From NCBI GenBank assembly GCA_937876355.1, contig CALFHN010000063.1, forward strand, positions 1 to 33,844: a DNA stretch of 33,844 nt. Direction: 5' to 3'. The DNA comes from an uncultured Bacteroidota bacterium. GTDB taxonomy: Bacteria > Bacteroidota > Rhodothermia > Rhodothermales > UBA10348. Shown here in pieces: positions 2,656 through 8,280 of the stretch. Below the pieces are notes generated by a model, which did not search any database, had not been told where the DNA came from, and worked only from the letters and a program-made list of their open reading frames with translations. Position 1 is the first letter of the stretch; each line of letters opens with the position of its first letter. A program made the translations under genes and the position numbers.

Positions 2656-3058
2656 ATCGGGACCTGATGTCGGAAGTTGGGATCCGGCAGGACTCCATTT
2701 TGCCAAACCACTTGTAGCGATTGTTAGCGATGAACCGATAAACGGCATCTCGAACAGGTCGAGGTATCACAATAAATCCGTAAAGCAGAGGCCAGGCACC
2801 GTTCAGTTTTCGGGCAATTCGTAGTGCAGCTTCAGAGTCGCGATACACAATATTTTTTTCTACGAGAATGATCGATTCCAAATAATTTTCTGACTGACCG
2901 GTTTTTTGCAGTACTTCACGCCCTTCTTCCGACTGTAATGCCCCAAATTTAAAATATTGATGCGCGTCTCTGTCTAGCACAAAATTGACGCTGGAATTGC
3001 AAAAGTTGCATACCCCGTCAAACAGTACAACTGCGGTTTGTGAGCCAATTTCATTCAT
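2648..3058 (-). CDS. DCC-family thiol-disulfide oxidoreductase-like protein (DUF393)
   Basis: A complete 136-residue protein. The N-terminus contains LFDGVCNFCNSSVNFVLDRD, with the DxxCxxC pattern that names the DCC family (Asp14, Cys17, Cys20), followed by FKFGALQSEEG, typical of DUF393. The family has a predicted thioredoxin-like fold and is suspected to act in thiol-disulfide exchange, but substrates are generally unknown. Length matches the usual 110-140 residues. There is no signal peptide, so a cytoplasmic location is expected. It converges on the DUF4175 gene with an 8-bp overlap of coding 3' ends and is otherwise a single-gene unit; its promoter must lie in 3059-3390. The start ATG at 3056-3058 puts only nine residues before the first beta strand, which suits the family. 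Confidence 0.88.
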   Translation of the reverse strand: MNEIGSQTAVVLFDGVCNFCNSSVNFVLDRDAHQYFKFGALQSEEGREVLQKTGQSENYLESIILVEKNIVYRDSEAALRIARKLNGAWPLLYGFIVIPRPVRDAVYRFIANNRYKWFGKMESCRIPTSDIRSRFI

Positions 3059-3390
3059 ATTACGTCATACGCTGAAGACAATTGGGTTGTTCACTTGTTC
3101 AAACTGTTCAATTTGAATTCAAATTTTAATGCGCTGAAAAGTTTTTCATTCATGATAAGTCCAAATCAAGTGCTCGAAGTGTTGAAAAAACAATCAGATA
3201 TTGGTAAATTGAGTATTCCGTCATTCTCCGAATCAGATTCTACCACACGATTTCGGGAAAGACACATAACACCAATCGACCGGGAAGTGAAGGTGTTCCA
3301 CAAACTTGCAGTCGCCTGCTGGGCAGCACGAGTTTCGCACTTCCTTACCTGGACCGATTGATTTTGCCCGTCAACACAAGTGACTAAGGT
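3059..3390. other. Divergent intergenic region (332 bp)
   Basis: No convincing gene. It separates the minus-strand DCC gene from the plus-strand starch-synthase-like gene, so it should hold both promoters. The left part is AT-rich and carries a 16-bp perfect palindrome (3110-3125) and two GTTCAA direct repeats beside it. I found no clean Bacteroidota-type TAnnTTTG element on either strand. The right half (3200-3360) is open in several frames on both strands but gives no recognisable protein. Confidence 0.6.
3110..3125. promoter_or_regulatory. 16-bp perfect palindrome, possible operator
   Basis: AATTTGAATTCAAATT reads identically on both strands and lies 52 bp upstream of the DCC start codon and 266 bp upstream of the starch-synthase-like start. 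Two-fold symmetric AT-rich sites are typical of dimeric repressor operators, but AT-rich palindromes also arise by chance; role is inference only. Confidence 0.3.
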
Positions 3391-4164
3391 ATGGCCAACG
3401 CGATGAGGATTCTGTTTATCACCGGTGAAGTTGCCCCTTTCTCCGATACGTCTGAGCTGGCAAAAGTGGTGCGAACGCTTCCCGAAGCTCTTCACGAATC
3501 AGGAAAGTTTGAGACACGAATCATGATGCCACGCTACGGTACAGTTAGCGAGCGAAGAAACAGGCTTCATGAAGTGATCCGATTGTCTGGTAGCGAAATC
3601 CAGTTAGGCGAAAGAACCGAAACATTACGGGTTAAAGTTGCCTCCATTCCAGGGATTCGTTTGCAAGTATATTTTATGGATAACCCATACTACTTCAAAA
3701 GAAAAGGCATTTTTGCGGATCGACAGGGCGAATTTTTTGAGGACAACCTTGAACGTTCTGCTTTTTACGCCCGTAGCGTCATTCGTACGATCCGCAATTT
3801 GGGATGGCAGCCGGACATTGTCCATGCTTTTGGCTGGCTAAGTGGAATGGTTCCTTACGTACTGCGTACAGAATTTGATGACGACGAGTTGTTTAAAGAT
3901 TCAAAGATCGTTTACACACCTGAATTAGTGGACTTTGATCTTCGTTTTACAGAAAAATCTTTTGATTCATTGAGTATGGCCCGTCATGAAATTTTGATCG
4001 GAGGTTCTCCGGTAGATGCGGGAAAACATTTTTCAGATGCAACAATTTTCCCAGCGTCGATGGCTGATTCCTCTGGTAACCCGTGTTTTTCTGGTCAACC
4101 AGAACAAGAGATGGATGAAGCAGTAGCCGTTTACGAAAGTGTTCTTTCAGGAGTAACAGTATAA
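3391..4164 (+). CDS. Short starch/glycogen-synthase-like protein (GT5 N-terminal domain only), probable pseudoenzyme
   Basis: 257 residues matching only the N-terminal Rossmann half of GT5 glycogen synthases: RILFITGEVAPF at residues 6-17, YYFKRKGIFADRQGEFFEDN at ~100-119 (canonical YFDR..G..D..GE...DN), and DIVHAFGWLSGM at 142-153. The C-terminal GT-B half is absent. The canonical KTGGL ADP-glucose motif reads DTSEL here (Asp19 where Lys is expected, Ser21-Glu22 where Gly-Gly is expected), and the HxHDW motif is degraded to HAFGW. Glycosyl transfer is therefore unlikely. Short proteins of this type are recurrent in Bacteroidota, commonly beside DUF4270 genes as here, which argues against a recent pseudogene. 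A second in-frame ATG at 3403 (giving MRILF) is an alternative start. It leads the envelope cluster. Confidence 0.82.
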   Translation: MANAMRILFITGEVAPFSDTSELAKVVRTLPEALHESGKFETRIMMPRYGTVSERRNRLHEVIRLSGSEIQLGERTETLRVKVASIPGIRLQVYFMDNPYYFKRKGIFADRQGEFFEDNLERSAFYARSVIRTIRNLGWQPDIVHAFGWLSGMVPYVLRTEFDDDELFKDSKIVYTPELVDFDLRFTEKSFDSLSMARHEILIGGSPVDAGKHFSDATIFPASMADSSGNPCFSGQPEQEMDEAVAVYESVLSGVTV

Positions 4165-4357
4165 TTGACCTTTTGACGAATACACTAGGAAGTACCCCAA
4201 AGGGTAGAAACAACGGCCATTTCTTGAGCATACTACAAGACTGAGGTTCGCCAAGATTAAGTCATTAGATATTATGCTTCATACACTGACGATTCATACG
4301 AAATAGCATATCACGTACGTTGTGCTTTAACAGCTTTCACCTTTTTTAGCTTATTGG

Positions 4358-5527
4358 ATGTATAACCTATTTTGGTCCAAACAACGTTTCGTTGTCCCAC
4401 TTCTGTCCCTTTTAATATTGTCTGCGTGCGACGACCCTTCCCCGATTGGTCTAAATCTAGTAGATTCTCAATCGGGAGATACTCAAGTTACCGAGTTCGC
4501 TCCTTCTTTTGCCGGTCATTCCAACTTTGGTGATGTGACGGGCGGTACAAATATCACAGGGGCAGTTAGAACCTTATTCGGTACAGTTTCAGATCCCGTA
4601 GTTGGCCCCTTCTCGATGACGGGCTACATGGATTTCATTAATAGCAGCAACGTTTCTTCTGAGTTTAGGGCAGCTGCCGTTTCGTTTGCGGATTTAGAAC
4701 TTAATCTTGATTATATCTACGGAGATACGTTAAATCCTGTAACCTTAGATATATATGAAATTGGAGCTGATTGGATTTCAGAGAGTGGGCGTGCTGATTC
4801 GTTTCTAGATGCACAATCCCTTGTCACTAGCACAACGGTTATGCCAGAAAAAGGAGTTTTTCACATTCCTCTTCCTTCAACATGGATTTCCGGAAAGGAC
4901 GCTGTCCTTCGCAGTACTACGTTCGTGGACGAATTTCACGGATTTGCTCTTCGTGCCTCTCAAGGAAGTGCTGTTTTAGGAGTGCATTTCAGTGGATCTT
5001 CGCTTCGGGCTTCGTCCGTGCCCGGTGACACGGTAAATTTTTCACTTTCCAAGGTTCTCTCAGCGTCTTCTTTTGTTAGTGATGCAGCAAATCCGGAGTA
5101 TTTATCCCTGAGAGACGGCGCGGCAGAGACTATATCCCTACGGTTTCCTTTCGAAAGCAAGGATTTTGGCGAAGCTGCATTTCATCGGGTAATTATTCGC
5201 TTGAACTCCGCCGATGTTAGCAGTCTTTATCCTGTGGGATTTGAAAGATCAAATCCAATTGCAGTTGGTTTACGGGCCGTTGCGGTAGATGAAACTACCA
5301 GATTGAACATAATTGTGGGAGAAATCGCTGAGAATGGTACCATTTCGTTCGATTCAGCGACCCTAGCCAACGTTGTTCAAAGCTCAAACCTTGCTAATTC
5401 AGGCCTAGATCGATTTGAGCTCTATTTCCCTGTCGAGTCCAATACTGTTGGGATAATAGCATTTAAGAAAGGCCTCCCAGCAACTTTTGGCCCTCGAGCT
5501 GTCATTACTTATACGTCCCTCAATTGA
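4358..5527 (+). CDS. DUF4270-family outer-envelope lipoprotein
   Basis: 389 residues. The N-terminus is a clear lipoprotein signal: basic start, hydrophobic VVPLLSLLILSA, then Cys24 as the lipidation site, followed by DDPSPIGLNLVD, the typical opening of DUF4270 proteins. The mature part is beta-rich with few charged helices and no enzyme motif. The family is Bacteroidota-specific, secreted and of unknown function. The Asp-Asp directly after the lipid Cys favours surface or outer-membrane retention in this phylum (an inference). It lies 193 bp after the starch-synthase-like gene and 4 bp before the next gene's likely start, so it is probably co-transcribed with the beta-barrel gene. Confidence 0.87.
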   Translation: MYNLFWSKQRFVVPLLSLLILSACDDPSPIGLNLVDSQSGDTQVTEFAPSFAGHSNFGDVTGGTNITGAVRTLFGTVSDPVVGPFSMTGYMDFINSSNVSSEFRAAAVSFADLELNLDYIYGDTLNPVTLDIYEIGADWISESGRADSFLDAQSLVTSTTVMPEKGVFHIPLPSTWISGKDAVLRSTTFVDEFHGFALRASQGSAVLGVHFSGSSLRASSVPGDTVNFSLSKVLSASSFVSDAANPEYLSLRDGAAETISLRFPFESKDFGEAAFHRVIIRLNSADVSSLYPVGFERSNPIAVGLRAVAVDETTRLNIIVGEIAENGTISFDSATLANVVQSSNLANSGLDRFELYFPVESNTVGIIAFKKGLPATFGPRAVITYTSLN

Positions 5528-5531
5528 GACT

Positions 5532-6866
5532 ATGAATTTTCCCAACGAATCCCGGACGTATGGCATGCGAATAAACCTCATTATCTGTCTAGTGTTGATG
5601 ATTGGAGTAGTTGTCCCTTCCACTGCCAACGCCCAAAGTCAAACGGACGGTTCGATATATTCTCGGTTTGGCCTGGGCCTACGTCAAAGCTTCACCTCAT
5701 CTAAAAATCAGGCGATGGGCGGAGGCGGCTTGGCATTATCGTCCTCACAGTATTTAAACACGTCCAACCCTTCATCGTATAGTGACCAATATCTTACCCG
5801 TTTTGCTGGCGGATTGACCTACGAATCTATCACCGCAAGCTCAGACGGCTCTCCGTCAGGCACGTTAGCGGCTAGTTCTTTGTCGGGAGTAAATTTTGGA
5901 TTCCCCCTGAAGTCGAATGTAACTGGTGTCGGGTTCTCTTTTGCGCCTTATAGCCGGGTAAGTTACCGAGTAGACGTTGAGTCGACGGTTATTTCCGACC
6001 CAACCACTGGTACTGCTTCCCCATACGTTACCAGCTTCAAGGGAAATGGCGGACTTCAGAGTCTAACCGCAGGAATAGGCCACAGAGTCAATAACCGTCT
6101 GTTTCTTGGAGCAAGCATAGACTTTATTTTTGGTATTCTTGAGGAATCTCAAAACACACTATTCAATTCAGCTTTATATACCGACCGTTCGAGTGTTGGA
6201 TCGACTCGAATGAGCGGCATTTCGACTACCGCAGGATTTAGATATGTGGTTCCGGGAATGCCTGCCAATCAAGGCCTGGTTCTAGGTGGTACACTCCATC
6301 TCCCGACGACTTTAAAGGCCACTCGTTCTCGCGCTCTGGTTAATCAACTGGATAGGGACACGTTAGGCACAACTTTAAGTGGGGATGTAAATTTGCCGTT
6401 TGGTTTTGGATTAGGTGTTGCATACCAACCCGTACCGAAATGGACACTGGTGGCTGACTTCGAATTTGAAAATTGGGGGGCTTTTGAAAGTGATCTAGAC
6501 TTCCCGGGATACGAATCAAATGGTGATCCCAACACATCTAATCGCGTACGTGCTTCTGCAGGAGCTGAATTTTGGCCCGCGGCTCGAAACCCATTTGCCT
6601 CTTGGTCGTCAAGAATCGCTTACCGTCTTGGATTGTATACGGAACAGTCCTATATATCACCCTTTCCAGATGAAAATATACGCTCAATAGGCGTAACGGG
6701 AGGGCTTAGCATCCCATCCTTGATACCTGGCACGACAATTGACTTTAATTTGGACGTGGGACAGCGGGGTAAATCCTCGAATGGTCTCATACAAGATCGA
6801 TACATTCGATTTGGATTAAACCTTAACTTTGGTGAACGATGGTTTGAGCGTCCGCCACTCGGTTAA
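5532..6866 (+). CDS. Outer-membrane beta-barrel protein (Bacteroidota SPYSRFG-like type)
   Basis: 444 residues from ATG 5532. An alternative ATG at 5565 gives a tidier signal peptide (MRINLIICLVLMIGVVVPST, cleavage after ANA). The mature protein starts QSQTDGSIYSRFGLGLR, resembling the SPYSRFGxGD opening of a family of Bacteroidota outer-membrane proteins, followed by QAMGGGGLALSSSQYLNTSNPSS, as in FadL/OmpP1-like barrels that begin with an NPA/NPS-type strand. The rest alternates hydrophobic and polar residues with many Gly, Ser and aromatic residues, as in transmembrane beta strands, and ends in a short Phe/Trp-containing tail. Substrate is unknown. Only 4 bp separate it from the DUF4270 lipoprotein gene, suggesting a barrel-lipoprotein pair at the outer membrane. 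Confidence 0.75.
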   Translation: MNFPNESRTYGMRINLIICLVLMIGVVVPSTANAQSQTDGSIYSRFGLGLRQSFTSSKNQAMGGGGLALSSSQYLNTSNPSSYSDQYLTRFAGGLTYESITASSDGSPSGTLAASSLSGVNFGFPLKSNVTGVGFSFAPYSRVSYRVDVESTVISDPTTGTASPYVTSFKGNGGLQSLTAGIGHRVNNRLFLGASIDFIFGILEESQNTLFNSALYTDRSSVGSTRMSGISTTAGFRYVVPGMPANQGLVLGGTLHLPTTLKATRSRALVNQLDRDTLGTTLSGDVNLPFGFGLGVAYQPVPKWTLVADFEFENWGAFESDLDFPGYESNGDPNTSNRVRASAGAEFWPAARNPFASWSSRIAYRLGLYTEQSYISPFPDENIRSIGVTGGLSIPSLIPGTTIDFNLDVGQRGKSSNGLIQDRYIRFGLNLNFGERWFERPPLG

Positions 6867-6954
6867 CACAAACTGATCTTTGAACGAAGTTCTTAACGGC
6901 TAACACCAGAAACGTTTTACGGTGTTTTCCATGTACTGCAAAATAATCGGAATT

Positions 6955-8280
6955 ATGCGCAACCTCTATAAAAATAGATCTCTGACCTTGAGCAGTCTTC
7001 TGCTCCTTGGTGCCACCTGGAGTCTTATGGCATCTTTTAACACTGCCAGTGCACAGACTGCGTGTAACACGGACGACATTCCGATGAACTACAGTCTGTA
7101 TGCTGAGGACTTCAAGAACGGTGGTTATGAATCCGCCCTTCCCTATCTACGCTGGATTCTGAATTGCGCCCCCGCTTATCCAACAAAGTCAGACCGTAAT
7201 TTCAAACGCTACGTTGAGCTTTTTGAAGGATTGGCTAGTGCCTCTGACGACGCAACCGTGCGCCGGAGCTTTTTGGATAGCGCTCTAGTTGCTTATAACA
7301 CGTTCCCAGAGAAAATGACATCAGCGGGCATTACTTATGAAATTTTTGATTGGACATTTAACAAAGCTCGCTTCCTTCAAGAACACGGTGAAGACATGGC
7401 CGACTTGCAAGGTGAGGTAGGACGCGTATACCTCGAGGCATATGAACTCGACCACTCTCAGCTGCAGAATTATTACATCAACTTTATCATCTACGATATG
7501 GTATCGAAAGACAATAAAGCCGATGCCGTCGAGTTTATGGATCGAGTTGAGGTAGATTATGCTGGAAATGCAGAAGTATTGGGCACCATCGAGTCTTGGA
7601 GAGGTCAATTATTTACTTCTCCAGGAGAACGCATTTCGTTTCTAGAAAGCCGAGTCGAAAAAGATCCTACTGATTCAGATTTGCAAGCTGAACTCCTTCA
7701 GCTTTATATGGACGAAAAAATGCGTGACCGAGCATACGAATTGGCGGACAAGGTCATGCAGAATACCCCAACTCCTCGGCTGTACAGAACGGTGGCGAAG
7801 ATGCGTCTGGATGACGGTGACACAGTAGATGCCATCCGGCTGTATAATGAGTCTCTCGAAATGCCAGGTGGAGCAGACGCGGCCAAAGAGGTGTATTTTA
7901 ATATCGGGATAGCACATCAGCAGGAAGGGCGCCTAGCAAATGCTAGAACCCAGTTTCAACAGTCATTTCGTGCCGATCCTACTTATGTTCAAGCGCTGAT
8001 TGCCATCGGGGATTTGTACGTAACATCCGTTCAGGGTTGTGGCTCGTTTGAGCGCGAAGATCGCGCCGTTTACTGGCTGGCAGCAGACTATTTCGATCGA
8101 GCTGCAGGCACCTCCTCGCTTGAAGCTTTTAAAAGTCAAGCTAGAAATAGGGTATCCAGCATTCGACGTTTTTTCCCAACCGCCGAAGACAAATTTTTCA
8201 AAAGTTGGAACCCAGGCGACAAGTACGCCATCGATTACGGTTGTTATTCCTGGATCGGGGAATCAACCACTGTTCGATAA
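6955..8280 (+). CDS. Secreted TPR-repeat protein
   Basis: 441 residues from ATG 6955, chosen because it gives a normal signal peptide: MRNLYKNRS, a hydrophobic stretch, and cleavage near NTASA before QTACN. In-frame ATG 6931 and GTG 6922 are longer alternatives. The mature protein is helical with tetratricopeptide-type repeats: the clearest are around ALPYLRWIL near the start and EVYFNIGIAHQQEGRLANAR followed by the next helix pair (nt ~7890-8020). Four cysteines (CNTDD, NCAPAYP, QGCGSF, YGCYSW) could form two disulfides in the periplasm. It probably acts as a protein-binding scaffold; no partner can be named. It follows the beta-barrel gene by 88 bp and is followed by a strong terminator, so it is the last gene of the envelope cluster. 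Confidence 0.78.
   Translation: MRNLYKNRSLTLSSLLLLGATWSLMASFNTASAQTACNTDDIPMNYSLYAEDFKNGGYESALPYLRWILNCAPAYPTKSDRNFKRYVELFEGLASASDDATVRRSFLDSALVAYNTFPEKMTSAGITYEIFDWTFNKARFLQEHGEDMADLQGEVGRVYLEAYELDHSQLQNYYINFIIYDMVSKDNKADAVEFMDRVEVDYAGNAEVLGTIESWRGQLFTSPGERISFLESRVEKDPTDSDLQAELLQLYMDEKMRDRAYELADKVMQNTPTPRLYRTVAKMRLDDGDTVDAIRLYNESLEMPGGADAAKEVYFNIGIAHQQEGRLANARTQFQQSFRADPTYVQALIAIGDLYVTSVQGCGSFEREDRAVYWLAADYFDRAAGTSSLEAFKSQARNRVSSIRRFFPTAEDKFFKSWNPGDKYAIDYGCYSWIGESTTVR

Follow-up and report, generated by a model that had tools for sequence, protein, structure and literature searches.

A conserved GT5-derived pseudoenzyme encoded ahead of the BAM subunit gene bamH in Bacteroidota

Why should half of a glycogen synthase be encoded at the head of a cluster of outer-membrane genes? 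The question is raised by an uncultured Bacteroidota bacterium, in which the window (the whole 33,844-nucleotide stretch of DNA analysed here) carries an uninterrupted reading frame at positions 3391–4164 of the forward strand. The 257-residue product, hereafter the half-GT5, matches the starch synthase catalytic domain (PF08323) over residues 6–192 (E 6.5e-42; 144.3 bits, cut-off 22.7), the alignment covering profile positions 1–180 of 239. No Pfam match is found past residue 192 and no glycosyltransferase C-domain is detected, in agreement with the original prediction that the second GT-B domain is absent. The score against TIGR02095 (glgA) is 106.3 bits, below the cut-off of 328.45, and the best curated model, the PRK14098 starch synthase, is matched far under its cut-off and over only the first 183 of its 489 positions. 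A separate full-length GlgA is encoded in the same genome, on another contig. No Rfam match lies within window positions 3000–7000.

The half-GT5 corresponds to the Rossmann domain on the N-terminal, acceptor side of a glycogen/starch synthase and, judging by its sequence, is not catalytic; active-site residues are discussed here using E. coli GlgA numbering and roles (K15, G17, G18, D137, H161, N162, R300, K305 and E377). At the position of the KTGGL donor-phosphate motif, as aligned with full-length syntenic homologues, it reads DTSEL (residues 19–23; 3445–3459, forward strand), so that the ADP-glucose motif is indeed destroyed. The HxxDW motif position reads HAFGW (residues 145–149; 3823–3837, forward strand) both in the sequence and in the homologue alignment, with the catalytic-site Asp gone and the His and Trp retained; HAFGW had been correctly reported, although as a replacement for HxHDW, whereas GT5 enzymes in general have HxxDW, which takes the form HCNDW in the closest relatives. 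The equivalents of H161 and N162 are also lost, and R300, K305 and E377 fall within the deleted part. GlgA residues still present are E13, P16, P47, R122, H145 and W149.

The same losses recur throughout the family. None of 77 short homologues retains KTGG: K15 is kept in eight, the G17 position holds Ser or Thr in 76 and Ala in the remaining one, and no short form has Gly at G18. Gly replaces D137 in 64, H161 is kept in nine and N162 in 21, and the C-domain with R300, K305 and E377 is deleted in all 77. In the full-length forms linked to bamH, K15 and E377 are present in 41/41, R300 in 36/41 and K305 in 38/41. These patterns bear on whether the half-GT5 might be the acceptor domain of a split GT-B enzyme, paired with a separately encoded donor domain. 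Alg13/Alg14 is such a split glycosyltransferase pair, the acceptor-side domain is predicted to fold well alone, and the same genomes encode numerous GT4-type proteins whose C-domain resembles that of GlgA. However, KTGG is missing from 77/77 short forms, D137 from 64/77 and H161 from 68/77, and in our neighbour survey no C-domain gene recurs next to the half-GT5, which makes a split enzyme very unlikely.

Departures from the canonical active site were also seen in full-length proteins. In three Chlorobiaceae members of the PRK14098 type K15 is replaced by Arg and the GG pair by SA or SS, with R300 and K305 lost, such that this ‘starch synthase’ looks catalytically altered; the sampled Chlorobiaceae mostly have one GT5 match per genome. 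In six of the bamH-linked full-length GT5s the KTGGL motif is eroding (e.g. KTSEFA, KTSELA and KWTDSA), a pattern resembling activity loss under way.

The half-GT5 is predicted to be a complete domain and not a fragment, since the AlphaFold model (13 homologues; pLDDT 92, pTM 0.91) is confident and its best Foldseek matches in the PDB are GT5 synthase structures, namely the E. coli glycogen synthase (2qzs), Arabidopsis SSIV (6gne) and the A. tumefaciens enzyme (1rzu), with TM-scores of 0.65–0.71 by query length. The model has one Rossmann domain and, after it, a C-terminal helix (residues 237–252; 4099–4146, forward strand), which is probably the last helix of GlgA, retained. In all short groups this helix aligns to the last helix of GlgA, with Tyr248 conserved in 96% of short compared with 100% of full forms, and the tail has a weak profile match to the extreme C-terminus of GlgA (P 0.08 and 0.025). 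The last helix of GT-B enzymes packs back onto the N-domain, and internal loss of the C-domain therefore fits better than simple truncation; the C-domain was apparently removed by an internal deletion that spared the last helix. Compared with GlgA as defined by PF08323, TIGR02095 and PRK14098, the half-GT5 thus has the N-terminal Rossmann domain and probably the last helix, but lacks the C-domain, KTGGL and the Asp of HxxDW.

Selection on the protein is strong. In pairwise NG86 comparisons the dN/dS is 0.02–0.09 where dS is unsaturated, which with the intact frames rules out a decaying pseudogene, for which a ratio near 1 would be expected. The dN of the half-GT5 is lower than that of BamH in 18/18 species pairs, and lower than that of BamG wherever comparable; for the pair L158/L159 the values are 0.045 (half-GT5), 0.61 (BamH) and 0.41 (BamG). 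In most pairs the rate of evolution is higher over the last 70 residues than over the remainder. We also considered a split frame or sequencing error hiding a C-domain, and rejected it given that many genera share this protein length and that there is no room before bamH. The assignment as a GT5-derived pseudoenzyme, with an intact fold, lost catalytic residues and ongoing purifying selection, is well supported, and so is the earlier description of a conserved, non-catalytic GT5 half with an intact frame.

Beginning about 195 bp downstream, the next gene (4358–5527, forward strand) encodes the DUF4270 lipoprotein that had been noted beside the half-GT5, and is identified here as bamH, whose product is a surface lipoprotein. 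The three top PDB matches to its model (Foldseek, E 5e-14 to 1e-12) are the BamH chains 9his_G, 9hjm_G and 9n2d_C, one from each of the three solved Bacteroidota BAM complexes, and its family profile matches 9hjm_G at E 1.8e-7; as a single sequence it scores 17.4 bits against the DUF4270 Pfam model, under the cut-off of 27. Its lipobox, LSAC, is followed by DD after the Cys, and the start LSAC-DDPSPI agrees with the reported rule of at least two acidic residues among the first six residues of the lipoprotein (PMC12578637). Next is bamG, encoding the FadL-like outer-membrane barrel of the BAM complex (5565–6866, forward strand). Its listed open reading frame starts at TTG 5487; the ATG at 5565 is the likelier start, with a signal peptide following it. 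The product exceeds the cut-off of the NCBIfam BamG equivalog model (NF053685; 258.1 against 250 bits) and by profile matches the solved chains 9hiv_F, 9hjm_F and 9n2d_B (E 1.9e-56 to 2.3e-45). Reports from 2025 describe BamG and BamH as part of the unusual BAM complex of Bacteroidota, along with BamA and BamD; both behave as essential in Flavobacterium johnsoniae, and BamH is dispensable yet important in Bacteroides thetaiotaomicron (PMC12611786, PMC12578637). By keyword search, these reports do not list the half-GT5 among BAM-complex proteins or in purified complexes. Although bamH and bamG lie directly downstream of its gene, the half-GT5 itself has no signal peptide that we could see, and is thus presumably cytosolic.

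The half-GT5 is nearly universal in the Bacteroidia and Rhodothermia sampled. Its reading frame is no product of chance: all 60 searched relatives gave a match, which in 58 covers the greater part of the frame; the other two comprise one weak, GlgA-type match only and one frame split across contigs. Across Bacteroidota genomes at least 90% complete, 391/393 matched the family profile, a count that includes full-length GT5s. To examine linkage, every open reading frame of 122 loci was profile-searched for GT5, BamH and BamG. The loci were picked on GT5 sequence alone and near copies were removed before counting; linkage was therefore not selected for. With class names (Rhodothermia, Bacteroidia and Ignavibacteria-like) that are our own assignment, made partly by gene content, short forms of about 255–300 residues are found in nearly all sampled Rhodothermia and Bacteroidia, and full-length forms of about 490 residues in Ignavibacteria-like classes and Chlorobiaceae. 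A same-strand bamH follows the GT5 gene at 42/43 short Rhodothermia loci, 26/30 short Bacteroidia loci and 40/41 full-length loci, as well as at the single sampled locus of a second short form described below, i.e. at 109/115 loci with Chlorobiaceae left out. The adjacency to a DUF4270 gene, which the original prediction had mentioned for other Bacteroidota, is thus phylum-wide. BamG follows at 40/43 short Rhodothermia, 0/30 short Bacteroidia and 35/41 full-length loci; in Bacteroidia, bamG has departed and bamH has mostly stayed. The Chlorobiaceae, which lack BamG and BamH according to one report (PMC12611786), have a full-length member that is unlinked.

No other gene family was found in the neighbour survey to recur comparably across all three groups. 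Group-specific neighbours are a GmhB-like HAD phosphatase (26/41 full-length loci), glmS (16/30 Bacteroidia loci) and a heptose adenylyltransferase (8 loci), which lend the surroundings an envelope-precursor flavour. Annotated Bacteroides and Prevotella records show a divergent panD–panC, then ‘glycogen/starch synthase’ and DUF4270, the last two separated by 21 bp or overlapping by 4 bp; these came from a plasmid search whose nearest matches were Bacteroidales records labelled as plasmids, some of them chromosomal-looking, and were used for annotated neighbours only.

The spacing of the two genes prompts the suggestion that the half-GT5 gene is a leader reading frame without a protein function, which by its place in the operon and by translational coupling would set how strongly bamH is expressed. 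In Bacteroidia the gaps are short (median 21 bp; 24/26 at 50 bp or less, or overlapping). Against this, the amino-acid sequence is under strong selection, the gaps are longer in Rhodothermia (as in the window), and in four Bacteroidia genomes the half-GT5 persists with bamH encoded elsewhere in the genome. We regard a mere leader role as highly improbable. The linkage may nonetheless reflect a shared promoter history instead of joint function. In the F. johnsoniae BAM study the fjoh_0824 promoter served as an inducible promoter, and this locus tag adjoins that of bamH (Fjoh_0823) (PMC12611786); from gene order in related genomes fjoh_0824 would be the half-GT5 gene, in which case the use of its promoter offers a hint of co-transcription.

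A tree of N-domains informs on the origin of the short forms. Those of Rhodothermia group with those of Bacteroidia in a single clade (SH-aLRT 99) that lies within the bamH-linked full forms and apart from canonical GlgA. In the Ignavibacteria-like classes the same place before bamH–bamG is occupied by a full-length synthase, with catalytic residues intact in nearly all cases. Syntenic homologues that have both KTGGL and the entire GT-B fold, which the original prediction had set against its reading, thus exist, but only in these classes, where they are apparently ancestral, and none is among the 77 short forms. These full-length proteins (for example those at loci L066–L070) share with the half-GT5 its syntenic place, its branch of the GT5 tree and the motif at R43–R64 discussed below; they differ in having 490 residues, the whole GT-B fold and, usually, a HAD gene before bamH (26/41). 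A full-length GT5 ahead of bamH–bamG is likely to be the ancestral state. The HAD gene (e.g. L066:7708–8298) encodes a HAD-IIIA phosphatase that resembles GmhB and may belong to ADP-heptose synthesis, and its presence inside the cluster raises the question of whether an envelope sugar, and not glycogen, is what the full-length GT5 acts on.

A second short GT5, of 286–288 residues, occurs in two genera of one Ignavibacteria-like family (L193, which is identical to L227, and L226). Its motifs are partly intact (KTSAIG and KTGSIA), its loci have the Ignavibacteria-like gene order with the GmhB-like HAD gene before bamH, and L226 and L227 carry the same C-terminal tail as the other short forms. 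The tree places L193 among full forms; a single clade of all short forms is not rejected by the AU test (p 0.36), and so the case for a second origin comes from the gene order and the full-length tree neighbours of that family. Shortening in this family was probably a second, independent event.

If not catalysis, what is the fold retained for? The half-GT5 descends from the acceptor (glucan) side of GlgA, and its Bacteroides neighbours include an alpha-amylase, a GT4 protein and a debranching enzyme, as might be expected if it regulated a true glycogen synthase or sensed glucan within glycogen metabolism. But among 26 Bacteroidia genomes, chosen for having a single GT5 match, 25 have the half-GT5 and no GlgA over the TIGR02095 cut-off, and bamH is the constant neighbour where glycogen genes are not. 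A regulatory place in glycogen metabolism is accordingly improbable in our judgement. The same 25 genomes make a part in glycogen synthesis itself unlikely, as had been foreseen, and membership of a glycogen-synthesis pathway was ruled out by them together with the TIGR02095 score and the motifs.

With only half of the enzyme present, kept across Bacteroidota and almost always placed before bamH, the protein probably has an envelope-related job and not one in glycogen synthesis. As gene linkage, the proposed tie to the envelope is stronger than originally claimed, because the DUF4270 protein is BamH and bamG follows. We propose, and hold to be about evenly balanced between right and wrong, that the half-GT5 is an ancient cytosolic pseudoenzyme that acts alongside BamH in envelope biogenesis, as a binding or regulatory protein. 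On this model a full-length, starch-synthase-type enzyme would originally have stood first in the bamH–bamG cluster; in the last ancestor that Bacteroidia and Rhodothermia share, the donor-binding C-domain would have been lost, apparently via the internal deletion that spared the last helix, while the acceptor-side domain that remained would have seen its donor and catalytic residues erode. The leftover fold would have been retained under strong selection for another job, the binding of a ligand or partner, through which it may regulate or assist envelope biogenesis together with BamH. The glycogen synthase of Pyrococcus abyssi forms a trimer mediated by its N-domain (PMC11046441), and self-assembly of the half-GT5 is therefore also possible. 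More tentatively, and on balance we lean against it, the protein could be a universal cytosolic envelope factor of Bacteroidota through which production of the phylum-specific BAM machine responds to sugar or nucleotide status, with the full-length GT5 having done, or still doing, a related job in sister classes.

The ligand might also be a nucleotide or a cofactor unrelated to sugars, possibly a corrinoid. The half-GT5 of B. thetaiotaomicron, BT_4307, is among sixteen proteins enriched in both of two vitamin B12 photo-probe screens (log2 fold changes of 2.6 and 1.05; PMC8941943). Such probes catch non-specific binders too, no B12-binding motif was found in the half-GT5, and its neighbourhood is without B12 genes; we consider a ligand of this kind unlikely.

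A candidate functional site is suggested by conservation in the alignment. In the stretch RIMMPRYGTVSERRNRLHEVIR (residues 43–64; 3517–3582, forward strand), R43, G50, R55, H60 and R64 are conserved in 99–100% of short and 88–98% of operon-linked full forms, and canonical GlgA differs. Q92 and N119 are likewise conserved in short and bamH-linked full forms but not in canonical GlgA. The unlinked Chlorobiaceae members retain much of the R43–R64 stretch, which is therefore a family trait and not proof of contact with BAM.

Nearly every sampled Bacteroidia and Rhodothermia genome carries the half-GT5, yet it is annotated as a glycogen synthase. The Bacteroides ‘glycogen/starch synthase’ (BT_4307; WP_007757275.1; about 280 residues), directly upstream of DUF4270/BamH, is the same protein, differing in name alone, and the name is unsupported by sequence. 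In B. thetaiotaomicron BamH is Bt4306, adjacent to BT_4307 to judge from locus tags and the gene order of the related B. finegoldii. BT_4307 has been cited as a potential glycogen synthase (PMC10797578) and is elsewhere called putative, and possible glycogen storage in B. thetaiotaomicron has been inferred in the literature from this protein. We found no description of the protein or of its linkage to bamH in the openly accessible journal literature, and the main text of a Porphyromonas gingivalis essential-gene study does not name it. Should it act with BamH, the outer-membrane assembly machine first described in 2025 would have a cytosolic partner that has gone unrecognised. The half-GT5 is also a clear case of an enzyme becoming a conserved non-enzyme, and living lineages still show the full-length counterpart, full-length forms that are degenerate, and another, probably independent shortening.

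Two further genes flank the cluster in the window. Directly after bamG, a gene at 6922–8280 (forward strand) encodes a TPR-repeat protein, assigned by weak TPR-family matches; a TPR protein recurs after BamG at 30 Rhodothermia and seven full-length-type loci, and may thus be a further factor linked to BAM. P. gingivalis PG0448 (FadL-type) and PG0449 (TPR), a pairing resembling that of bamG and the TPR gene, appear in a list of Bacteroidetes-specific proteins (PMC1887533). Upstream of the half-GT5, positions 151–2655 encode an 834-residue, Gln/Glu-rich coiled-coil protein without a Pfam match; a long protein recurs upstream at 14 Rhodothermia loci and possibly belongs to the same family.
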